Under the pieces are notes generated by a model. That model ran no database searches and had not been told where the DNA came from. It was given only the letters and a program-made list of their open reading frames with translations. A program made the translations under genes and the position numbers. A DNA stretch of 64,000 nt. Source: Emticicia aquatilis. Its GTDB lineage: Bacteria; Bacteroidota; Bacteroidia; Cytophagales; Spirosomataceae. Where the stretch lies: assembly GCF_014644295.1 (NCBI RefSeq), contig NZ_BMKK01000007.1, positions 62,001-126,000 on the forward strand. Reading direction: 5' to 3'. Numbering within the stretch: the stretch's first letter is position 1; each line of letters opens with the position of its first letter. Below, in pieces: positions 33,753 to 45,030 of this stretch.

Positions 33753-35600
33753 TTAGAAAATCTCAAATATCATCGTAGATTTTGGTGAGATAGAAAGACC
33801 ATTTTTTAGGCTTTGTGTTTCGTTGTTTAGAATATTTTTGGCTGAAGTTTTATTCTGCAAGATTTCATCAAAACGCTTGGTTTCGAGCTTTATTTCTTTT
33901 TCATTTTTATTCATCACAACCATCACCGTTTTCTGATTATCGTATCTGAAATAAACGTAAATTCCATCAAATGGTGCAAAATGAAGCGTTTTTCCATTGG
34001 CAATAACAGAGTTGTTTTTTCGCCAATTTAACAATTGTTTCAAATATGACTTGGTGCTTTTTTGTGCTGCCGTTAGGCCTTTTTCGGTGAAAACATTCAC
34101 AGTATCTTCTTTCCAACCACCGGGCAAATCCGAACGAATCAGTCCATCTACTTTATGATGCCCTGTGTTTTGCATCAAAACCTCTGTTCCGTAATAAATT
34201 TGAGGTATTCCACGGGTAGTAAGCAAATAGCCCAGTGCCATTTTAGTAAGGTCAACATCTTCGTTGAGTTGTGTAAAAATGCGGTCCATATCGTGGTTAT
34301 CGCCCATAATTAGAATATTCGATGGGTCGGCATACACAAAATCATTTGCCAATGCCTCATACAAAACTGTTAAGCCCTTTCCCCAAGTTTCTTTTTCTTT
34401 GAGGGCATTGACGAGTGCTTCTTGCAGTGGGAAATCCATGATACTCGTCAGACAACCATCATAGCCATCGGCATTTTTTCTGCCTCTTTGCCAATAAGAA
34501 GTTATGAGCGGATTGACGCTCCATTCTTCACCAACCATGCTAAAATTAGGATATTCGTTCATGATGGCACAACTCCAGTTTTTCAAGAAAGTCTTATCCG
34601 AATATCCGTAGGTATCTTGACGAACTCCGCCCAGTTGGATGGTTTCAATCCACCATATTGTGTTTTGTATCAGATAGTTAGCCATGAAAGGGTTTTCGCC
34701 GTTCATGTCGGGCATCATTCTATCAAACCAACCTTTTTTCATGAACTCTTTGTCATAATCTGAAGCATAAAGGTCTTGATTGACCGTACGACGATGATTA
34801 GTCGAAGTTTTGGTATCGGGATAGTTGAGCCAGTTTTTAAATGGCAAATCCTCTGTCCACCAATATCCGTAGCCAGTATGATTCAATACTTCATCAAAAA
34901 TTAATTTTATACCCTTTTGGCGAGCTTTGCTCGAAAGTTCCTTATAATCATCAAGCGTGCCGTATCTTGGGTCAACTTTGTAGTGATTCGTAATGGCATA
35001 GCCATGATAAGAATAGCCCGACATATTGTTTTCGAGCACAGGCGTTGGCCAAATTGCCGTAAAACCCATGCTGGCAATGTAGTCAAGGCTATTTATCATT
35101 CCTCTAATATCGCCGCCGTGGCGTCCGCCATCAAGGCTACGATTGATTTTGGCTTCTTTCATGCCCGCAACCACATCATTCGAGTAATCTCCATTGACAA
35201 AGCGGTCGGGTGTGATAAGGTAAATGACATCAGAAGAATTAAACCCACGCATTTGGGCTGATGCTTGTTGCTTGGGAAGTAAGCTATAATTGTACGTATA
35301 AATAGTTTTGCCTGCTTTCTTAAAATTGATAGTGAAACTACCTGCTTTGGTGGTTTTGGCAATGACTAAATCAAGGAAAAGATAGTTTTTACTATCTGCT
35401 TTATTGACTTTTTTGATGCTTACACCTGCATAGTTGATAGAGGGTTGAGTTTCGGAGATATTTTCTCCATGAATCAATAATTGCAAGTTTGGATTTTTTA
35501 AGCCTACCCACCAATTCAGTGGCTCAACGTGCTGGATTTGTGCGTTTACGGAAAATTTCAGGCACAAAATACATAATAAAGTGAATGATTTCTTTAACAT
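33753..35600 (-). CDS. Secreted GH13 alpha-glucanase (neopullulanase/SusG/SusA-like)
   Basis: A ~615-residue exported GH13 enzyme. A signal peptide (~1-20, ending VNAQ) is followed by an N-terminal beta-sandwich (~24-110), then the (beta/alpha)8 barrel with VYLITPDRF, DEVLNHTGYG, nucleophile D329 in GGVRQDTYG, acid/base E358 in VGEEW, and D437 in MGDNHD, and a C-terminal beta domain. The sequence points to a neopullulanase/cyclomaltodextrinase-like alpha-1,4-glucan hydrolase in the envelope. A terminator upstream separates it from the SusE/F-like gene, so it may be expressed differently. The first in-frame ATG is at 35684; the internal one adjoining the signal peptide is chosen. Confidence 0.9.
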   Translation of the reverse strand: MLKKSFTLLCILCLKFSVNAQIQHVEPLNWWVGLKNPNLQLLIHGENISETQPSINYAGVSIKKVNKADSKNYLFLDLVIAKTTKAGSFTINFKKAGKTIYTYNYSLLPKQQASAQMRGFNSSDVIYLITPDRFVNGDYSNDVVAGMKEAKINRSLDGGRHGGDIRGMINSLDYIASMGFTAIWPTPVLENNMSGYSYHGYAITNHYKVDPRYGTLDDYKELSSKARQKGIKLIFDEVLNHTGYGYWWTEDLPFKNWLNYPDTKTSTNHRRTVNQDLYASDYDKEFMKKGWFDRMMPDMNGENPFMANYLIQNTIWWIETIQLGGVRQDTYGYSDKTFLKNWSCAIMNEYPNFSMVGEEWSVNPLITSYWQRGRKNADGYDGCLTSIMDFPLQEALVNALKEKETWGKGLTVLYEALANDFVYADPSNILIMGDNHDMDRIFTQLNEDVDLTKMALGYLLTTRGIPQIYYGTEVLMQNTGHHKVDGLIRSDLPGGWKEDTVNVFTEKGLTAAQKSTKSYLKQLLNWRKNNSVIANGKTLHFAPFDGIYVYFRYDNQKTVMVVMNKNEKEIKLETKRFDEILQNKTSAKNILNNETQSLKNGLSISPKSTMIFEIF

Positions 35601-35675
35601 AATAGCTGTAAGTTTAGCGTAAAAGGAGAGGTTAAAGTGAAAATTATTAGGCTGCAAGAAAAATGAGTTCAAAAA

Positions 35676-35703
35676 AATCTGCATAACAAACGTTATGCAG
35701 ATT
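35676..35703 (-). terminator. Intrinsic terminator between SusE/F-like gene and GH13 gene
   Basis: 12-bp arms (35676-35687 and 35692-35703) with a 4-base loop, followed on the minus strand by T7. It lies ~26 bases after the SusE/F-like stop. Confidence 0.8.
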
Positions 35704-35728
35704 CTGATTATTTAACCTATGATGATTC

Positions 35729-37048
35729 TTATTTAACCTTAGTAGCTTTGTAAGTTGGCTTGGCAGGGTCTTTTACGTCTAAGACGAAATTCCACGTACC
35801 TGCTTTTACACCAAAGTTTTTGCCACCGTCTTTCAATGCTCCGCTTGCTGCAATTGGGTCTGGTTCGGTGCTATTGGCCGAGCCATAATTTACACCCCAA
35901 TCATCATTCAATCTGAATTTGATTTGGCCATCTTTCAGCACTACATTGTTCAGATACCAAGTTTCGGTGCTGAGGTCATAGCTGAATTTTTGGTCAGGTT
36001 TGTCGCCCCAACCTGTGGCAGTAGCATCGCCCACAATTCCCCAAGGAGCATATTTTGTAATCGTATATTTCATTTTTTTGAAATCTACCGTAATCAAGTA
36101 TGTTCCTTTCTTTGCTGCAATGTTATCTCCACCTTCTTTCAATACTCCGTTCGAACCACCATAATTTACACCCCAGTCGTTGTCTTTGCGAATCTTAAAT
36201 TCACCATCAATAAGTGTCACAATGCCAGTCCAAAGGTCAACGCTTGGGTCGTAGTTGAGCGGAGCATCAGGCGTTGCACCCCAGTTATTGTAGGCACTTC
36301 CCACAATTCCCCAAGAATATTTCTCAACCTTGTAAGTGAGTGCAACTGGATTAAATGTGATTTTATAAGTACCTGCTTTTACAGCAATATTATCACCATC
36401 TTTTTTCAACACACCGTTTGTTCCACCATAATTTACTGCCCAGTTGTTGTTTTCACGAATCTTGATTTCACCGTCTTTAAGTGTTACATACGCTACAAAT
36501 ACATTTGGTACTTCAGTTTTGTAGAATGGCATATCAGGGCCATCCCAACCGTTGGTTGTGGCACTTCCCACTACACCCCAAGTAGAACTTAGGTCTAATT
36601 TATCGAGATAAGGCGTGGCCGTAAGGCTACTTACTGTCGAACTCAACACCGTAGAAGCTCCCATTGTAGCTGTTATTTTGATGTCGATGTCGGCAGGTGT
36701 GCCAGGGGCAAGTCCAAGACCCAATAAGATTCCGTTTAACTCGGCGGTTGTAAAGGTTTTCTTTAGGTCAGAACCAGCAGTGATTGATGATGCTTTCGAG
36801 AAATTTCCACCTTTTTTATCAATCAAAATGGTGTTGGTTGCTGCCGCACTAAAACCATAATCGGCTGCCCATGAGATAGTTAGTGCTTCTTTGGTGGCAT
36901 TGTCTTTATTCAATACAACACTTTTGCTCGAAAGCGTGACCACAGGAGCTGCTCCAGTACTTAAAATTGCTCGTTCTTCTTCTTTTTCGCAGCCCCACGC
37001 AAACAAAATCGCCAGCCCGAAGAGAAATAATTTATTGAATGTTTTCAT
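35729..37048 (-). CDS. SusE/SusF-like outer-membrane lipoprotein with three glycan-binding repeats
   Basis: A 439-residue surface lipoprotein. The lipobox is FAWGC (cysteine ~20), followed by an acidic EKEEE outer-membrane export-type signal. An N-terminal SusE-like domain (~30-150) precedes three tandem repeats (~158-250, 251-335, 336-439), each beginning WG(V/I)VG and containing IK(I/F)R..NDWGVNYG. These match the starch-binding modules of SusE/SusF. It should bind glycan at the cell surface beside SusC/D. Ligand specificity cannot be read from sequence. Confidence 0.88.
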   Translation of the reverse strand: MKTFNKLFLFGLAILFAWGCEKEEERAILSTGAAPVVTLSSKSVVLNKDNATKEALTISWAADYGFSAAATNTILIDKKGGNFSKASSITAGSDLKKTFTTAELNGILLGLGLAPGTPADIDIKITATMGASTVLSSTVSSLTATPYLDKLDLSSTWGVVGSATTNGWDGPDMPFYKTEVPNVFVAYVTLKDGEIKIRENNNWAVNYGGTNGVLKKDGDNIAVKAGTYKITFNPVALTYKVEKYSWGIVGSAYNNWGATPDAPLNYDPSVDLWTGIVTLIDGEFKIRKDNDWGVNYGGSNGVLKEGGDNIAAKKGTYLITVDFKKMKYTITKYAPWGIVGDATATGWGDKPDQKFSYDLSTETWYLNNVVLKDGQIKFRLNDDWGVNYGSANSTEPDPIAASGALKDGGKNFGVKAGTWNFVLDVKDPAKPTYKATKVK

Positions 37049-37059
37049 ATTTTTTATGT

Positions 37060-37153
37060 TTAGGCTATTGGCATTTAGCTTTTAGCGATTAGCTTTTCTT
37101 GATAAAAACGCTCAAAGTTCTAACTGCTAAATGCTAATTACCAACGGCTATTA
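37060..37153. repeat. Inverted pair of heptamer arrays (nnTTAGC / GCTAAnn)
   Basis: Five units of the nnTTAGC type (37060-37094) face complementary GCTAAnn units (37126-37153) across a central ~30 bases. The right array overlaps the last codons and stop of susD. It sits inside the transcript between susD and the SusE/F-like gene. Confidence 0.7.
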
Positions 37154-38695
37154 ATATCCTGTATTTTGTTTCAAAGTAGGGTTTGCAATAAGGTCGGAAG
37201 CTGCCAACGGGAATACCGAACGGAACGTTTCTACGTCTTTTCCTGCTTTAATTCCACCTTTCCAAGCCCAATTATAGCCATTTGTAAACTTCCCAAAACG
37301 AACTAAGTCAGTACGACGATGTGCTTCCCAGTATAATTCACGACCACGCTCGGCCAAAAGATTGTCTAATGTCAGTGAAGAAAGGTTGGCAGTACCTGCA
37401 CGTTTGCGAAGTGAGTTTACTAAGCTAAGTGCCAAAGTACCATCGCCACTACCGCCACGAGTAACGGCTTCGGCGTAAATTAAATAAGCATCGGCTAATC
37501 TGAATAACGGGAAATCGGTGTCCGTGTGCGTTAGGTTTTTGCCTGGTTTTCCATCTCTTTTTACGTTTTTCCATTTCGTAACGGCATAACCATTCGAGAA
37601 AGTACCTACTTCATCAATTTCTAATTCTTGTCCATTAGTGTAGAACATTCCACGTTTATCGGCTTTGTCATTGAATAAAGACACAAATTCTTTGGTTGTA
37701 CGGAAGCCACTCCAGCCACCGTCAACGCCAAATTCAGCGGCATTCATGCTTCCACCTATCGAAGCGTGAATAATTGTGGTAGTTCCGCCCCAAGTTTGAG
37801 TTTCGTTTCCATCAAAATTGATAGCAAAGATATTTTCGGTAGAAAGGTGATTATCGGCTAAAAAATTGTGCTGATAATTGTTTTCTAAAACATAACCCGC
37901 ATCAATTACTTTTTTTGCGTAAAGAGCAGCTTCGCTGAATTTTTTCTGACCAGTATAAACCTCAGCATTCAAATACAATTTAGCTAAAACCATCCAAGCG
38001 GCTGCTTTATCGGCTCTTCCGTATTCATTTTTGCGTGCATCTGGAAGTTCCGTTTCAAGAGCTTTTAATTCAGTTTCTAAGTAATTGAATAATTCTTGAC
38101 GAGATGCTTGTTTAGGCAAATCAGAACCTACTTTATCGTTTTCGGTTACGAGCGGAATACTACCAAAAAGGTCGATTCCATGCGAGTAAACCAATGCACG
38201 AATGAAACGGGCTTCGGCACGGTAGTTTTTTATATCTTGTGAATTGGCAATTCCACGACTGCTCAATTTAGCGTCAGTAGTTTCACGCAAAAACTCATTA
38301 GCTACGGCTGCTTGGAATAAGATTCTTGAATAAAAAGCTGATGTCCAAGCATTTGAGGCTGTCCAAGACATTTTGTGCAAATCAGGTAAACCTGGGTCTC
38401 CCCAACCTACGATTGCTTCATCGGTCGTAAATTCTTGTAAGTACCAATACACACGCATATAGCCCTGAAAACCACCATCAAAGTTTTTCAAATCTACATC
38501 ATCGTCTTTTGGTTTGATACCCGAAACCGCCAAACCTGCGTATAATTTTGCCAAAATCTCTTTGTAATTATTGGCATCTTGATAAACCAATTCTGAAACT
38601 TGCCCCACATAAGGCTTGGTATCTAAGTCTTTGCACGACCCCATCACGAAAATCAGTGCTAAAACGGCTATTAATTTTTTAGATATATTTTTCAT
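37151..38695 (-). CDS. susD: SusD-like outer-membrane glycan-binding lipoprotein
   Basis: A 514-residue SusD/RagB-family protein that forms the lid of the SusC transporter. It has an N-terminal signal with the lipobox MGSC (cysteine ~21), tetratricopeptide-like helices (ARFIRALVYSHGIDLFGSIPLV) and the family C-terminus with LRKRAG...LLAERGRELYWEAHRRTDLVRFGK. It lies 13 bases downstream of susC, the obligatory pairing. The glycan it binds is unknown. Confidence 0.95.
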   Translation of the reverse strand: MKNISKKLIAVLALIFVMGSCKDLDTKPYVGQVSELVYQDANNYKEILAKLYAGLAVSGIKPKDDDVDLKNFDGGFQGYMRVYWYLQEFTTDEAIVGWGDPGLPDLHKMSWTASNAWTSAFYSRILFQAAVANEFLRETTDAKLSSRGIANSQDIKNYRAEARFIRALVYSHGIDLFGSIPLVTENDKVGSDLPKQASRQELFNYLETELKALETELPDARKNEYGRADKAAAWMVLAKLYLNAEVYTGQKKFSEAALYAKKVIDAGYVLENNYQHNFLADNHLSTENIFAINFDGNETQTWGGTTTIIHASIGGSMNAAEFGVDGGWSGFRTTKEFVSLFNDKADKRGMFYTNGQELEIDEVGTFSNGYAVTKWKNVKRDGKPGKNLTHTDTDFPLFRLADAYLIYAEAVTRGGSGDGTLALSLVNSLRKRAGTANLSSLTLDNLLAERGRELYWEAHRRTDLVRFGKFTNGYNWAWKGGIKAGKDVETFRSVFPLAASDLIANPTLKQNTGY

Positions 38696-38708: not shown

Positions 38709-41699
38709 TTAGAAGTTGATGTTTAAGCCTACCGAGTAGGTGCGTGGTCTTGGATAGATTTGACGGTCGATACCATCGGCAATCTCTGGGTCTAAACCTT
38801 TGTATTTCGTAATTACGAATACATTTTGCACCACAAACGATAATTGTGCTTGGATTTTCTTAGCTCTAAACAAATCGCTCAGATTATAACCCACGTTCAA
38901 ATTGTCCATGCGTAAGAATGAAGCATTTTGTACGTAATAATCTGAAAGAATGGTTTGGTCAGTGCGAGTTTTGAAGTTCGTTTCCAAAACATTGGCCGAA
39001 ACGTTATTGATGAAGTTGCCCGCACCCGTAATGTTTTGGTAAGTAGCCATGCTTGAGTAAATATTATTCAAGGCGTAATTACCGATGTTTGAACGCATTA
39101 CAAAGCCTAAACTTGCTTTTTTGTAAGACATCTGCGAGCTAAAACCTAAGAAATATTTAGGAACAGCCGATTGATAACGATAGCGGTCTAATTCAGTGAT
39201 TTTTCCATCACCATTGAGGTCAGCAAATAAGCCTTCGATTGGCTTTCCTGCTTCGTCATATACTTGTTTATAGACAAAGAATGTATTTGGCGTGTAGCCA
39301 GTTGAATGCACTTGTGCGTAGTTTCCTACACCACCACTGATGCCACCTACCAAAACACCTACGTAAGTTGGGTTATCAACTTTGGTTAAAGCCGTGATTT
39401 TTCTTTCGTTATACGTGAAGTTTCCACTAATATCCCAATTGAAGTTTTTGTTCATAATTGGTGTGTAATTAATCACCACTTCAAGACCTTTGTTTTCGAG
39501 TGTTCCAACGTTGGTTGTTACTTTATTACTGAAGTTTGAGCCAGCCGCTACATCAATTTCGTTAATCAAATCGGTTGTTTTCTTTTGGTAAACATCAATG
39601 CTACCAGAAATGCGTGCTTTTTTCAAACCAAAATCTAAACCTAAGTTAGTAGAAGCCGTTTGTTCCCATTTGATATTTGGGTCGTAGGCATTTGGGCGAA
39701 GTACATCGTAGTATCTATCTCCAAACTGGTACTTCAAACCTTGACCTTTAGTATAAGCATTCAAATAAGGATAATCGCCCGTTGATAAATCTTGTTGACC
39801 CGTAAGTCCCCAACCAAAACGTAGTTTTAAATCAGAGAAAATCTCATCGTTTTTGAATTCTTTATTGATTTTCCAAGCCAAAGCTACCGATGGGAATGTT
39901 CCCCAACGATTTTCTGGAGCAAAACGAGAAGACCCATCACGACGAACTGTTACGGTTGCCAAATATTTATCATTTAATGAATAATTCAAACGACCGAAAA
40001 ATGAAAGTAGAGCGTAGTCAGTTTTGAAGTATGAGTAAATTGGCACTACACCGCTATTTCCGTAAGTAGTTCCATTTTCGTTTTCTCTCACAAATCCTTG
40101 GTTTTCAGCACCCGCCATGATATTTATCGACTGACCATTCAAGCCTTTTACATAGTTTAAGTAAAACTGGTTGGTGAAATTATTACGAGTTTGGGTATAA
40201 TAGCCAACCGAACCTTGATTAGTAAATGAAGTAGCCGAAAGTAAGTTTGATTCAGTTTGGTCGCCTCTGGTATTTGAGCGGTCGAAACCAACATTCCAAA
40301 CGGCACGAAGGTCTGGGAAGAAATGGAATTTGTAATCAGCTTGGATATTTCCAATCATACGATTAAGCGTACCAACATTGCTTTTTAGATTCAATAAAGC
40401 CAGTGGGTTGATTGGTGCTAAACCAGCCAAGTCGCCATTTTGTGCCAACCATTGGAAATAACCACCGAATTTGTTTTCGGCATAAACATTTTGAGTTGGG
40501 TCGAAACCAATGGCACTTCCGATAGCTCCTTCATCAGCAAAATTGCTTTTGGTTGAAGAATATTTGAAGTTAATATCAAGTTTTAAATGCGATTTGAAGA
40601 ACGTAGGCGTAAGACCAACCGATGTTGAAGTTCTATCCATCGACGAAGTTTTCAAAATACCATTTTGTTTGGTATAACCCACTGATACACGATAAGGCAT
40701 TGTTTTCAAATTGCCCGTTACGCTCAAATTATTATCGCTGCTTAGTGCTGTACGGAAAATCTGGTCTTGCCAGTTGGTGTTAGCATTGCCCATAAGTTTT
40801 TGCTGTGTAGCAGTTCCATAAGTATTCACAGCAGTTCTGAACTCATCGGCTGTAAGTACATCAACGTTATTTACTCTTGAGGCTGACGAAAACAATGTAC
40901 TAAACGCCACATTAAGCTTATCTTTTTTGCTGCCTTTTTTGGTAGTGATGATAATTACACCATTGGCCGCACGTGAACCATAAATAGCTGCTGCTGAGGC
41001 ATCTTTTAAGATATTAAACGATTCAATATCATTTGGATTAATAAAACTCAAAGGGTTAGCAGCACCCGAAACATTACTATTATCGAGCGGAATTCCATCA
41101 ATTACGATAAGTGGGTCATTGCTGGCACTTAACGACGAACCACCACGAATACGGATACGGCTACCCGAACCTGGAGCTCCACCATTCGAGGTGATTTGCA
41201 CACCCGCCAATTTACCCGAAACCAATTGCTCAGGCGTAGCGATGTTTCCTTTTACGAAGTCAGTCGAAGTGATTGATGTAATCGAACCTGTTAAATCTTG
41301 TTTCTTTTGTGTTCCATAACCCACAACTACCACTTCTTGCAAGATTTTGTTATCATCAACCAACTTTACATCAATCATTGAGCGATTACCCACCGCAATT
41401 TCTTGAGTTGCTTTACCAATAAAACTGAAAACCAGCGTTGCGTTGGCTGGTACTGCCACTTGGTAGCTACCACTGGCATCGGTTTGTGTACCCGTTGTTG
41501 TTCCTTTGACCGAAACCGCTACTCCAGGTAGTGGAGAACCATCGGTTAGGTCGGTAACTTTGCCGCTAACTGTTTTTTGTGCAAAAGCCACGCTTGTGAG
41601 CATCACCGCAAGCAATACCGAAACGATACCCTTACAGTAAGCCATGCGTTGGACTCCCGCCGCAGTTAAGACTTTCCAATTGTTAAAGTATTTGTTCAT
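38709..41699 (-). CDS. susC: SusC-like TonB-dependent outer-membrane transporter
   Basis: A 996-residue barrel transporter of the SusC/RagA group. A long N-terminal signal region (~1-41) is followed by a carboxypeptidase-like domain (KTVSGKVTDLTDGSPLPGVAVSVKGT starts it), the TonB-box/plug signature LQEVVVVGYGTQKKQDLTGSI and the RIRGGSSLSASNDPL region typical of SusC. The barrel ends with YSVGLNINF. It imports oligosaccharides in partnership with the SusD just downstream. Confidence 0.96.
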   Translation of the reverse strand: MNKYFNNWKVLTAAGVQRMAYCKGIVSVLLAVMLTSVAFAQKTVSGKVTDLTDGSPLPGVAVSVKGTTTGTQTDASGSYQVAVPANATLVFSFIGKATQEIAVGNRSMIDVKLVDDNKILQEVVVVGYGTQKKQDLTGSITSITSTDFVKGNIATPEQLVSGKLAGVQITSNGGAPGSGSRIRIRGGSSLSASNDPLIVIDGIPLDNSNVSGAANPLSFINPNDIESFNILKDASAAAIYGSRAANGVIIITTKKGSKKDKLNVAFSTLFSSASRVNNVDVLTADEFRTAVNTYGTATQQKLMGNANTNWQDQIFRTALSSDNNLSVTGNLKTMPYRVSVGYTKQNGILKTSSMDRTSTSVGLTPTFFKSHLKLDINFKYSSTKSNFADEGAIGSAIGFDPTQNVYAENKFGGYFQWLAQNGDLAGLAPINPLALLNLKSNVGTLNRMIGNIQADYKFHFFPDLRAVWNVGFDRSNTRGDQTESNLLSATSFTNQGSVGYYTQTRNNFTNQFYLNYVKGLNGQSINIMAGAENQGFVRENENGTTYGNSGVVPIYSYFKTDYALLSFFGRLNYSLNDKYLATVTVRRDGSSRFAPENRWGTFPSVALAWKINKEFKNDEIFSDLKLRFGWGLTGQQDLSTGDYPYLNAYTKGQGLKYQFGDRYYDVLRPNAYDPNIKWEQTASTNLGLDFGLKKARISGSIDVYQKKTTDLINEIDVAAGSNFSNKVTTNVGTLENKGLEVVINYTPIMNKNFNWDISGNFTYNERKITALTKVDNPTYVGVLVGGISGGVGNYAQVHSTGYTPNTFFVYKQVYDEAGKPIEGLFADLNGDGKITELDRYRYQSAVPKYFLGFSSQMSYKKASLGFVMRSNIGNYALNNIYSSMATYQNITGAGNFINNVSANVLETNFKTRTDQTILSDYYVQNASFLRMDNLNVGYNLSDLFRAKKIQAQLSFVVQNVFVITKYKGLDPEIADGIDRQIYPRPRTYSVGLNINF

Positions 41700-41821: not shown

Positions 41822-42937
41822 TTACTTATAAAGCTTTTGATTGAAAAAATCGAAAACAGGAAGTGCTTCGTTGTTGCGTTCTGCATCGAAGAAAATGGCA
41901 TTGTCCCAATGGGAGCCTTTTCCCCAAGCGGTATTGCAATTGGTCGAAATCCAAGCGGGTTCCCAGTAGATAATTCCTTCTCCACCACCTTTCACGACTG
42001 TTTTTGTCAGGTCAATCATAAATTTTAGTTGTCCGTCTGGCGTGTAATCGTAACCCGAAATTTTTCCTTCACCGTCTAATACATTATTGGCAGTATCAAA
42101 GTTTTTTGGCGAATACGGGTAGCCCGTTTCGACAATCATTACTCTTTTATTGAAATCGGCTTTCAATCTTTTTACCTCATTTGTTAAGCCCAAAAGATTA
42201 AATTTTGACCATTTTGGGTAATATGAAAGGCCAATCCAATCGTAGTTGATGATGCCGTTTTTCTTGGCATTTTCAAACCAATTATAGGCTTCATCAGGCT
42301 GGGCAATGTGCAGCATGGTTTGAATTTTTTGTCCACGTATAGCTGAAATTTTATCAACGGCCTCAATTCCTCTGTTCAGCAATGCCACATTCCGTTGCCA
42401 GTTGATTGTTTTGGCAGCATCTTTTGTGTATTGCATCACTTCACTATTGATTTCGTTGCCTACTTGCACAAATTCGGGCGTTAGATTGGCATTGGCGAGT
42501 TTGTTAAGTATATTAAAAGTGTAGGCATAAACAGTATCTCCCAAGATTTTGGTGTCTTTGATATTCTCCCAAGCTTTCGGAATAGTTTGATGAGCGGGGT
42601 CGGCCCAAGTATCGGAGTAATGAAAATCAAGCAGCACTTGCATATTTTGCTCTTTGGCTCGGCGAATGCTTTTCTTTACGTCTTCAAAAGTTGAATACTT
42701 TGTCCAATCGGGCGAATGCCACAAACGGACTCTCACTACATTCGCACCTTTATCTTTGAAGAGTTTGTAAGGGTCAACTTTCATACCATTGCTTTGGTAA
42801 GTTCCACCACAGTCTTCCATTTCATTGACATACGATAAATCGCCACCAAGAAAGAGTGGTTCTTTTTCAATGTCTTTTACTTGGCAACAAAAACTCGAAA
42901 ACAAAAAAGTGACACCTAACAAGTAAGTTTGTTTCAT
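41822..42937 (-). CDS. GH53 endo-beta-1,4-galactanase lipoprotein
   Basis: A 371-residue exported glycosidase. A lipobox-like FSSFC (cysteine ~17) precedes a TIM-barrel typical of GH53: GGDLSYVNEMEDCG, VVRVRLWHSPDW, LLDFHYSDTWADP, the catalytic acid E162 in VGNEIN and nucleophile E270 in IVETGYPY. GH53 enzymes cleave beta-1,4-galactan side chains of pectin. It is the first structural gene of the glycan locus, downstream of a region with two palindromes and a -7 element. Confidence 0.92.
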   Translation of the reverse strand: MKQTYLLGVTFLFSSFCCQVKDIEKEPLFLGGDLSYVNEMEDCGGTYQSNGMKVDPYKLFKDKGANVVRVRLWHSPDWTKYSTFEDVKKSIRRAKEQNMQVLLDFHYSDTWADPAHQTIPKAWENIKDTKILGDTVYAYTFNILNKLANANLTPEFVQVGNEINSEVMQYTKDAAKTINWQRNVALLNRGIEAVDKISAIRGQKIQTMLHIAQPDEAYNWFENAKKNGIINYDWIGLSYYPKWSKFNLLGLTNEVKRLKADFNKRVMIVETGYPYSPKNFDTANNVLDGEGKISGYDYTPDGQLKFMIDLTKTVVKGGGEGIIYWEPAWISTNCNTAWGKGSHWDNAIFFDAERNNEALPVFDFFNQKLYK

Positions 42938-42990: not shown

Positions 42991-43131
42991 CAAAAGTACA
43001 ATTGATATTAAGGCGTGTCGCTCCACTTTATAAATATTATAAAAAGTGCAGTAAACTATAACTTAGAAGATGTAATGTGTTGATGTGTAGCTGATTATAA
43101 AAGTCAAATGAGTATCCACTTTATAAAGTGG
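42991..43131 (-). promoter_or_regulatory. Putative promoter/operator region of the glycan locus
   Basis: On the minus strand a -7 element TACTTTTG lies at 42991-42998, ~54 bases before the GH53 ATG. Upstream of it, the 11-base word CCACTTTATAA occurs at 43023-43033 (within an imperfect palindrome) and again at 43116-43126 (within a perfect 16-base palindrome, 43116-43131). These could be operators of the adjacent AraC regulator, or dispersed repeats. Confidence 0.45.
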
Positions 43132-43149: not shown

Positions 43150-45030
43150 TTAATCATTGATTTGTTCAAAAAAATCGCTTGGAGTTTGGTTTGTAATCTT
43201 TTTGAACGAACGATTGAAGGCAGTTTTAGAATTGAACCCCACTTCAAAAGCCAAGCTGAGTAGCGTGTAATTTTTGTAACGTGGGTCTTCGATACGTCGT
43301 TTAAACTCTTCGATTCGGTAGGTATTCACTAAATCAAAAAAGTTTTTATCAAAGCCATCATTGATAACTTTTGATAATACGTGGGGCTGAATCTTGAGTT
43401 TTGCAGCAAGGTCGTTGAGTGTCAGTTTTGGGTTTTCATAAGGTTTGTGTTTGTCCATGTAGGTTTCCAACTGGCTTTTCAAAACTATGATATTTTCATC
43501 AATAACCTCGGTTTTATCGGGAGTAGGAGCGTAGCTATTGGCGTGATTGATTGGTAGCGGATTTTGAAAAAATTCGACCTCACGCTGTGGAAGCTTGAAA
43601 ATTTCGGGTTGATGAATAGCAAAATAGCCTAAGAAATAGACAATAGTTGAGAATACCAACCAAATAGTGTCGATGCTTCGCTCGGCAATAAGACTGTCGT
43701 TGACGTAACCCAAATAAGAAATTAAACTCCAAAAACCCGTAAATAGCCAAAGAATTAAGCACAATGCTTGAATCGAAAGAACAGTGTTGAGGTATTGTAG
43801 GTTTTGTTCGTAAGAATAATTGTGGCTATAATCCCGCTTGTAGGTTTGAATCATTTTTCGACAGATATTCCAATAGTAGAAATTACTACATAAACCAATC
43901 GACCCCATTACTGCCAAAACGGTTTGCAAATCATTGTCTTCGTTGACCAACTTTAACCTGAAAACGCTGAAATCCATCAAAAAATACGGCAGATACACAA
44001 CGAGCTGAATGGCTGGTAGAATAAAATGAAACTGCCATTTTTTAGGTAATTTCTTGGTCTGAAATAGCAATTTATTCAGATAAAAATAAAAAAGAGGGGC
44101 GTAGAGAAACAACAATAAATTCGGTATTAGCAAAAGTTTAGGATAGGTCTGAGCAAATTCTTTGTGGTTTGACATTTCTCGCAAAAGCACCATGAGCGAT
44201 GTCACCGCTATCAAGGAAACCAACCAACGGTTTGCCGCTCGGTTGTAATCATGAATGGTAGGAATAGCAATAATGAGCAAAATGCCTTGAAAAGAGGCAA
44301 AAAGCATCAGTAAATCAAAGAGAGAGAAAAAGTTAAATGCTCCCGAAAAGTCTTCCCAGCTTTCGATAGTTATCTGAATTGTCTTTAAGTCGGTGCTATT
44401 TGAGCGATTAAATACTCGATTCGGGCGGGCTTTTCCACTTTCACGCCCTTCGACAGATTCCCACGACCCACGAGTAAATTTATATTCTAATCGAGACAAA
44501 TCGCTGTAAATAATAGTGCGATAAGTGCCATCAGCTTGGCGTTTGAGTCGGTATTTTTCTTCTCCAGGGTTCCAATTATTAAAATTTCCTGTAATATAAA
44601 TATGAGCATCTTTGGGCGTATTTGTTGGGATTTTCTCAATCACCATCACATACGAAGGTTTCGATTCCCAACTTTCAATTTTCACATTTACTAATCTTGG
44701 ATTAGCTTCGTTTGCAGCATCATAAATTCTGTTTTGGCGGCTTCTTCCATCTTTTCCGCCCTCAACCAGCATCCAATTTCCTTGTGTAAATTTATATTCA
44801 AAGTAAGGGATTGAGTCGGGTAAAATAATAAAATAGCTACCGTCGATGTCTTTTTTGAGTGCGTAGTTGGGGTCGCCTGGGCTCCAATTATTAATCGAAC
44901 TGGCCATGTATAGTTCGCCATCAGGCACGAGGAATGTCGGATATTCAGAAACCACAATTTTGATTTGGGCTTCTGTCCGATTTCCCAAAAGCATCAGAAG
45001 AATGGCGATTATCGAGAAAAATTGCTTCAT
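43150..45030 (-). CDS. Membrane AraC-family regulator with two extracytoplasmic starch-binding-like domains
   Basis: A 626-residue protein with an unusual order of parts. A signal peptide (~1-22) is followed by two similar beta-sandwich repeats (~38-122 and ~142-226) with SINNW/NFNNW and EYKFT(Q/R)G.W, matching CBM20/CBM48-like starch- or glycogen-binding domains. Then come seven hydrophobic helices (~236-256, 269-285, 299-322, 333-352, 369-390, 413-438, 454-475) and a C-terminal AraC/XylS helix-turn-helix (~525-622, LAFEVGFNSKTAFNRSFKK). The odd helix number puts the repeats outside and the DNA-binding domain inside. It sits directly upstream of the glycan locus. It could sense glucans directly and switch on transcription. 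Confidence 0.85.
   Translation of the reverse strand: MKQFFSIIAILLMLLGNRTEAQIKIVVSEYPTFLVPDGELYMASSINNWSPGDPNYALKKDIDGSYFIILPDSIPYFEYKFTQGNWMLVEGGKDGRSRQNRIYDAANEANPRLVNVKIESWESKPSYVMVIEKIPTNTPKDAHIYITGNFNNWNPGEEKYRLKRQADGTYRTIIYSDLSRLEYKFTRGSWESVEGRESGKARPNRVFNRSNSTDLKTIQITIESWEDFSGAFNFFSLFDLLMLFASFQGILLIIAIPTIHDYNRAANRWLVSLIAVTSLMVLLREMSNHKEFAQTYPKLLLIPNLLLFLYAPLFYFYLNKLLFQTKKLPKKWQFHFILPAIQLVVYLPYFLMDFSVFRLKLVNEDNDLQTVLAVMGSIGLCSNFYYWNICRKMIQTYKRDYSHNYSYEQNLQYLNTVLSIQALCLILWLFTGFWSLISYLGYVNDSLIAERSIDTIWLVFSTIVYFLGYFAIHQPEIFKLPQREVEFFQNPLPINHANSYAPTPDKTEVIDENIIVLKSQLETYMDKHKPYENPKLTLNDLAAKLKIQPHVLSKVINDGFDKNFFDLVNTYRIEEFKRRIEDPRYKNYTLLSLAFEVGFNSKTAFNRSFKKITNQTPSDFFEQIND

Follow-up and report, generated by a model that had tools for sequence, protein, structure and literature searches.

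The window analysed here is a 64,000-nucleotide stretch of Emticicia aquatilis DNA (contig NZ_BMKK01000007.1, positions 62,001 to 126,000). A gene on its minus strand encodes a 626 aa membrane protein that most probably is a one-component transmembrane activator of the adjacent starch/maltodextrin operon, sensing α-glucan in the periplasm and working without a phosphorelay. This assignment is based on the computed domain order, predicted topology, fold, conserved residues and gene neighbourhood, and on a promoter motif and its co-occurrence with the regulator. In the mechanism that we infer, α-glucan oligosaccharides imported by SusC would bind the two periplasmic starch-binding-like domains; the seven-helix bundle would relay a conformational change to the tethered cytoplasmic AraC domain; and this domain would itself bind the motif AAAGTGGRRCGA just upstream of the promoter, possibly a more distal palindrome as well, and, as an activator rather than a repressor, recruit RNA polymerase to the GH53–susC–susD–susE–GH13 operon.

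Domain organisation of the regulator

The regulator comprises the following parts, with coordinates as positions in the window (CBM, carbohydrate-binding module; HTH, helix–turn–helix):

43150–45030, minus strand: regulator gene, 626 aa, with a signal peptide, two CBM20/26/48-like domains, seven transmembrane helices (7TM) and an AraC HTH
44968–45030, minus strand: signal peptide, residues 1–21 (sequence; helix 2–16 in the full-length model)
44662–44967, minus strand: sensor repeat 1, residues 22–123 (model, fold matches, conserved residues)
44335–44661, minus strand: sensor repeat 2, residues 124–232 (model, fold matches, conserved residues)
43612–44322, minus strand: seven predicted transmembrane helices, residues 237–473 (hydropathy profile, model, loop charges)
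43165–43410, minus strand: AraC-type DNA-binding domain (HTH_18), residues 541–622 (Pfam, fold matches)

The open reading frame (ORF) is exact, with the ATG at 45030 and the stop at 43150. An earlier note on this DNA had read a signal peptide, two repeats, seven helices and an AraC HTH in a single protein, and the ORF, the structural models and the HTH_18 match agree with that description. The signal peptide is probably cleaved before Q22, a residue invariant in 11 aligned orthologs. A chance ORF or fusion artefact was rejected, as full-length orthologs with 43–96% identity are present in many genomes. In Pfam and NCBIfam searches with the whole protein, the AraC domain is the sole part above cut-off: the HTH_18 match (E 1.9e-12, residues 541–622) scores 47.8 bits against a cut-off of 33.6 and the HTH_AraC match 33.7 bits against 26.6. 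The regulator accordingly carries the two-HTH C-terminal domain of AraC/XylS proteins above the curated score. Fold matches of this part in Foldseek include 6swi, 3lsg and 2k9s, and a phmmer search of the regulator against the PDB returned the AraC domain plus weak PorM matches. A fold search with the full-length protein gave nothing at E 1e-3 or better.

Pfam at E 1 and NCBIfam at E 0.1 gave no match to a histidine kinase, ATPase or receiver domain in the regulator, and the protein would therefore work without a phosphorelay; an ordinary hybrid two-component system (HTCS) was rejected since Pfam detects neither kinase nor receiver. Predicted transmembrane helices and a DNA-binding domain are joined in one chain lacking phosphotransfer domains, as in transmembrane one-component regulators. 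The 7TMR-DISM Pfam models have no match at E 1 in the regulator or in two paralogs (L161 and L162).

The hydropathy profile averaged over 25 family rows (L127 being left out as a copy of L031) has seven peaks past the signal peptide, near residues 250, 278, 309, 343, 377, 426 and 464. The full-length model (11 sequences, mean predicted local distance difference test score (pLDDT) 76.5, predicted template modelling score (pTM) 0.47) places helices at 237–259, 264–287, 297–323, 332–351, 366–401, 407–439 and 446–473, followed by a linker with pLDDT under 50 between TM7 and the HTH (residues 481–512) and by a helical DNA-binding domain spanning 511–624. The odd helix number claimed earlier is thus upheld by the family profile and the model, though the regulator's own profile, at the same threshold, shows six peaks, that near 377 being too low. 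The mean net charge (K+R minus D+E, 26 sequences) is +0.2, +2.1 and +1.2 in the three inter-helix loops presumed to lie inside and −0.2, −0.4 and −1.2 in the three presumed to lie outside; the cytoplasmic linker 473–520, with a net charge of −4.5, gives no help to the inside-positive rule. The repeats are accordingly predicted to be periplasmic and the AraC end cytoplasmic, an arrangement that the charges of all six inter-helix loops fit. The membrane concerned is presumably the inner one, so that ‘outside’ means the periplasm. The proposal in the earlier note that repeats and DNA-binding domain lie on opposite sides of the membrane holds up, while the compartment needs correction from the cell exterior to the periplasm. 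The proposed glucan sensing is affected likewise: with the sensing site in the periplasm, an oligosaccharide imported by SusC is a likelier ligand than a polymer outside the cell.

When the full-length model was searched with Foldseek, G protein-coupled receptors (GPCRs) were among the best matches of the helical part, residues 237–473 (best E 5e-3), with template modelling (TM) scores by target of 0.33–0.55 for smaller chains among the 50 matches listed. This ranking may come just from the packing of seven helices and from the large number of GPCR entries in the PDB; at most it suggests a comparable arrangement, and it does not indicate shared ancestry.

Residues 22–232, modelled alone (22 sequences), form two β-sandwich domains with a mean pLDDT of 91.9 and a pTM of 0.77. 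A Foldseek search of this model against the PDB gave 54 matches at E 1e-3 or better. The top match is the CBM26 of Amy13K (E 2.3e-6); many cyclodextrin glucanotransferases (CGTases), BoGH13A-Sus and CBM41 occur among the 50 matches listed, and the TM-score by target with STBD1 CBM20 with maltotetraose is 0.63. The repeats have an immunoglobulin-like (Ig-like) β-sandwich matching solved CBM20/26/48 modules, and the starch-binding-like fold suspected earlier is supported by the CBM26, CBM20, CBM41 and BoGH13A-Sus matches. A profile of the repeats compared with the PDB recovered BoGH13A-Sus at E 4.6e-5, AMPK-β glycogen-binding domains at 0.05–0.9 and a branching enzyme at 0.97. Related domains elsewhere exceed the AMPK1_CBM cut-off, with 36.0 bits in L041, 33.2 in L126 and 41.8 in L129.

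In repeat 2, residues W153, K184 and N204 are kept in 26/26 orthologs and W190 in 25/26; in repeat 1, counting rows without a gap, W49, K80 and W86 are kept in 24/24 and N100 in 22/24. The Trp and Lys positions align with AMPK in the PDB profile search. Trp, Lys and Asn at such positions take part in glycogen binding by AMPK, and the conserved Trp–Lys–Trp–Asn set represents putative α-glucan ligand residues. A loss of sugar binding, with the repeats serving as anchors or for protein interaction, is very unlikely: their weak match to Pfam CBM models would suit such a loss, but in each repeat the four putative ligand residues hardly vary. Orthologs with a single repeat, such as L124 and L125, keep repeat 2, which may be the essential sensor.

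Proteins with several such starch-binding-like repeats adjoin an apparent two-component pair at three loci (L126:8132–11657, L129:6878–8724 and L130:7989–9815). A domain scan confirmed His_kinase and LytTR in L126, and in L129 and L130 the pair is presumed from the look of the neighbours; perhaps the same sensor domain serves a kinase in trans there.

Putative target operon and distribution of the regulator family

The putative target operon lies downstream of the regulator gene on the same strand and consists of the following genes (GH, glycoside hydrolase):

41822–42937, minus strand: GH53 (PF07745), first gene of the operon (Pfam)
38709–41699, minus strand: SusC-type TonB-dependent transporter (Pfam, NCBIfam)
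37151–38695, minus strand: SusD-type protein (best NCBIfam model starch SusD NF033071, E 3.3e-113)
35729–37048, minus strand: SusE-type protein (PF14292; Pfam)
33753–35684, minus strand: GH13 with cyclomaltodextrinase N- and C-terminal domains (PF09087, PF00128, PF10438; Pfam)

The SusD-type protein scores 378.9 bits against NF033071, under the cut-off of 725. Within 10 kb of the regulator, at 26 ortholog loci (L118 and L127 being left out as copies of L035 and L031), SusC is found at 19 loci, SusD at 19, SusE at 17, GH13 at 17 and GH53 at five. SusC/D and/or GH13 lie within this distance at 23 of the 26 ortholog loci, as against none of 19 repeat-less paralog loci, where SusE and GH53 are likewise lacking within 10 kb; this control consisted of 20 loci fetched, one of which (L180) had no anchor. 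The window, L031 and L111 are over 80% identical to one another, as are L035 and L036, and L037 and L040, and the 26 loci correspond to about 22 independent ones; once near copies are merged, SusC lies within 6 kb at 15 loci. After clustering of the 225 neighbours within 6 kb, only SusC, SusD, SusE, GH13 and GH53 recur at five or more of the 26 loci. All nine GH13-labelled neighbours scanned proved to be PF00128 proteins (9/9). A second set of 14 loci from other genomes has GH13 within 10 kb at 12 (the labels of L217, L219, L220, L221 and L222 coming from BLAST alone), SusC/SusE at L215 and nothing at L224. The same domain order, for which the earlier note had suggested a search, thus recurs in other genomes beside sus-type loci.

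Among 200 genomes sampled from the taxonomic family, 62 carry both the regulator and the SusD ortholog, seven the regulator only, six SusD only and 125 neither (Fisher 2.4e-36, a P value which, like the one given for the motif below, overstates the evidence because the genomes are related). In 54 of the 62 genomes with both, the two genes lie within 12 kb of each other.

GH53, a galactanase family, leads an otherwise starch-type operon (41822–42937 in the window), an arrangement that recurs at L121, L123 and L223. Its presence points to galactan. With the same architecture and target, the inducer might be β-1,4-galactan or another non-α-glucan, GH53 reporting the true substrate. GH53 comes next after the regulator in the window and is found at the five ortholog loci and at L223; moreover, PF00756 esterases with no known substrate carry related domains, so that the fold alone leaves the ligand unfixed. 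(Such a repeat is present, according to BLAST/neighbour data, in all 10 of the proteins with a PF00756 match that were scanned.) However, 21 of the 26 ortholog loci lack GH53 and 17 have GH13, distant orthologs lie beside α-amylases, those at L120, L211 and L213 bearing CBM26 repeats, and several of the best folds of the repeats are starch-binding modules. We consider a non-α-glucan inducer unlikely; a second substrate at the window locus, alongside α-glucan, is possible given GH53.

The two closest relatives have an additional gene, coding for about 305 aa, between SusE and GH13 (L031:11881–12795 and L111:2047–2970); it encodes a PF00756 esterase in L111 and is absent from the window (35684–35729), where the two genes are 44 bp apart.

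With a full-length profile at E 1e-60, the regulator was found in 69 of the 200 genomes of the taxonomic family, in 24 of 36 genera; the 69 include G548, aligned from residue 256 only, and five genomes without repeat 1 (G018, G460, G475, G487 and G497). At the same threshold it occurs in 41 of 291 genomes sampled across the order (in G636 the match starts at residue 242, hence without repeats) and in 6 of 395 sampled across the phylum (in G279 and G305 the match starts at residue 218–231, likewise without repeats). Named carriers are Runella, Dyadobacter, Telluribacter, Spirosoma, Aquirufa, Jiulongibacter and Chryseolinea. Fused regulators of this kind make up a conserved family, represented in several families of a single order. 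In family f18, two divergent copies are present in 8 of the 12 genomes with a match: copy A adjoins an amylase of about 2000 aa (with CBM26 repeats in L211 and L213, which were scanned; L217, L220 and L221 by BLAST) and copy B adjoins different amylases (L212, L214 and L218), the pairs L211/L212 and L213/L214 each sharing one genome.

The 7TM-AraC half without repeats is common among relatives. In a tree of this shared half, with long branches flagged on the paralog side, a branch (100/100) separates the 26 fused sequences from the 19 repeat-less paralogs, which also speaks against a fusion artefact and makes a single fusion event the simplest account. A bolder proposal, in which our confidence is less than even, is that the seven-helix bundle is the receptor itself, passing periplasmic sugar occupancy directly, by conformational change, to the tethered AraC domain, which would act from the membrane on an operator near the regulator's own gene. 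On this view the CBM-less 7TM-AraC paralogs would represent a general class of bacterial 7TM receptors whose output is direct DNA binding, with the fused branch as its glucan-sensing member and a fourth type of regulator of polysaccharide utilisation loci (PULs).

Candidate operator and promoter

The gap between regulator and operon contains the motif AAAGTGGRRCGA, a −7-like box and a distal palindrome, which in the window are represented by these elements:

43018–43029, minus strand: promoter-proximal operator-like site AAAGTGGAGCGA (promoter comparison, conservation)
42991–42999, minus strand: −7-like promoter box GTACTTTTG, resembling the Bacteroidetes −7 consensus (conserved distance from the proximal site)
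43116–43131, no strand assigned: distal perfect palindrome CCACTTTATAAAGTGG (promoter comparison)

For the comparison, 23 promoter stretches were cut before SusC or GH53 only; four inner gaps (window, L031, L111 and L121), none of which has a proximal site, were dropped and 19 were compared. Seven of the 26 loci are outside this set (L038, L114, L116, L117, L120, L122 and L124). AAAGTGGRRCGA precedes the operon at 18 of the 19 promoters, and the nineteenth (L115) was located by a pattern search of the genome (G011:C6:2347573). The short site alone is not significant in the window, with two matches at one mismatch against 1.2 expected; its weight comes from conservation across loci. Measured between their starts, the best-matching box follows the site by 29 bp at 11 loci and by 30 bp at two; a box with three mismatches is found at 29 bp in L033, L037, L040 and L119, and none at that place in L181.

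The exact composite of site and box occurs in 7 of 58 genomes, once in each, all seven being among the 17 with the fused regulator; the reversed control gave 0. At up to two mismatches the composite is found in 46 of 200 genomes, comprising 43 of the 69 with the regulator and three of the 131 without it (Fisher 5.6e-22), and in 37 of the 43 it lies within 1 kb of the regulator gene. This genome has eight more exact half-sites, all of them inside genes or overlapping a gene end; they were rejected as a wider regulon, and the regulator therefore looks dedicated to one operon. Together with the neighbourhood and its paralog control, the operator-like motif and the co-occurrence support the control of the adjacent locus that the earlier note had proposed.

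The centre of the distal palindrome lies 77–97 bp from the start of the proximal site at the 14 of the 19 loci that have a palindrome match, three of them with five mismatches. A fixed helical phase between the two was rejected, as the distances fall at 77–81 and 92–97 bp. The palindrome may be a second operator or a terminator hairpin: in L036 and L112 its sequence varies yet stays complementary, which is hairpin-like, and in L037 and L040 it lies between divergent genes, a place unexpected for a terminator.

At two of the six genomes with SusD but without the regulator, an extracytoplasmic function (ECF) sigma factor, a FecR-type anti-sigma factor and an extended SusC precede the same starch-type susCDE operon (L207:10339–15800 and L208:6473–11626). 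The SusC proteins have about 115 extra N-terminal residues, with a weak STN match, below cut-off, in L207. The promoters of both operons have no composite site at up to five mismatches; L207 has a loose half-site match, without a box, about 310 bp upstream of the sigma gene. This swap places the 7TM protein in a role that a known PUL regulator fills elsewhere. Among the other genomes, no regulator was recognised near the operon by gene labels at L206, L209 and L210, where unlabelled genes were left unscanned, and L205, on a short contig, has the exact motif with an aldehyde dehydrogenase upstream. A repeat-less 375 aa AraC protein, probably of the 7TM-AraC kind, lies beside the GH13 end of the ECF-regulated operon at L208:346–1473. 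At L206:11076–12724, called frames repeat the peptide NSYLVRLK in partly N-masked sequence that looks like a tandem or CRISPR-type array.

It is improbable that a different regulator, such as a LacI-type repressor, uses the motif while the membrane protein is encoded next to it but acts at another place. The perfect palindrome of the distal site is typical of a dimeric repressor, and the co-occurrence of motif and regulator is in part operon co-inheritance (among genomes with SusD, 41 of 62 with the regulator and one of six without it have the motif). However, at 17 of 18 loci (four with three mismatches) the proximal site and the −7-like box are 29 or 30 bp apart, a position usual for an activator; most matches are close to the regulator gene; the two ECF-pair operons lack the composite; and a further regulator family is not seen beside the operon at as many as five of the 26 loci, an AraC-like one being found at three. 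Release of the AraC domain by regulated proteolysis, in place of a conformational change at the membrane, is also quite unlikely. In its favour are the low-confidence linker between TM7 and the HTH and, at L224, an M16 peptidase gene that follows the regulator; yet none of the gene families shared by at least five of the 26 loci within 6 kb is a protease (the rest of the genome was not searched for proteases), and the closeness of operator and gene, within 1 kb in 37/43 genomes, would suit a tethered regulator.

Several further observations speak against the regulator being an α-glucan-sensing activator of this operon. No Sus or GH13 neighbour is present at L038, L114 (both near contig ends) and L122, nor at L224 in the second set. 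The repeats score below the Pfam cut-off (AMPK1_CBM E 0.071, 13.8 bits against 26.8), their two-domain TM-scores by query are low (0.19–0.36), and Foldseek also returns Ig-like pilins and proteases, matches to be expected with such a fold. In the reversed control, the two-mismatch pattern matches 14 of 200 genomes, so that some motif matches are due to chance, and the motif was derived from loci lying partly within the counted set. At two mismatches, 26 of the 69 regulator genomes lack the motif, L223 with its full operon among them; in the 14 further loci the site precedes the operon in L222 only, and in f18 it is found inside genes only.

Comparison with known systems

Searches of an open-access library listed no fusion of CBM-like repeats, 7TM and AraC in titles or abstracts. 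The parts have known counterparts. The repeats resemble the AMPK-β glycogen-binding domain, CBM48, CBM20 and CBM26 in fold and in the conserved Trp–Lys–Trp–Asn positions, but differ from them in falling below the Pfam cut-off and in being joined to a membrane transcription regulator. Transmembrane regulators such as ToxR, CadC and relatives act from the membrane, and both single- and multi-helix forms are on record in a survey (PMC10269533), so that several helices are not new in themselves; CadC is presented as a single-helix protein in the abstract of PMC6320335. The term AraC is absent from the main text of the survey.

Three types of PUL regulator are named in the accessible parts of PMC3878776 and PMC10316084: SusR-like, HTCS and ECF/anti-sigma. 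An HTCS combines a periplasmic glycan sensor of the COG3292 type and an AraC output in one protein, often beside susC/susD (PMC3878776). The regulator also joins a periplasmic sensor and an AraC output in one chain, but differs from the HTCS, so described, in having no kinase, ATPase or receiver, in its seven helices and in its starch-binding-like domains in place of a COG3292 sensor. The ECF sigma and FecR-type anti-sigma pair with SusC likewise regulates PULs and adjoins the same operon where the 7TM-AraC protein is missing, at L207 and L208; it consists of two proteins plus a transporter, with no sugar-binding sensor on the regulator, unlike the 7TM-AraC protein.

SusR of Bacteroides thetaiotaomicron (BT3705), according to PMC3878776, is a one-component membrane protein with a periplasmic sensor and a cytoplasmic DNA-binding domain that controls the sus genes. 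The regulator shares with it the periplasmic sensor, the membrane part, the cytoplasmic DNA-binding domain and an adjacent sus operon, its topology being predicted. The DNA-binding domain of SusR has no significant similarity to other known transcription factors, according to the same text, whereas that of the regulator is a canonical AraC domain and not of SusR type, SusR being compared by description only (PMC3878776). Predicted SusR motifs are direct repeats with centres 67 or 77 bp apart, as given there; here, the palindrome centre is 77–97 bp from the start of the site.

A one-protein system of this kind poses the question of how sugar binding would alter a DNA-binding domain across a seven-helix bundle without a kinase, and would provide a compact switch for expression in response to starch, for which a candidate promoter is already defined. 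If the assignment is true, a fourth type of PUL regulator, present in several families of one order, would be added, together with a candidate operator and an ECF system that naturally takes its place beside the same operon. Compared with the three named types, as far as the accessible parts of the sources describe them, the 7TM-AraC regulator fits none: it is SusR-like in its working and is built differently.

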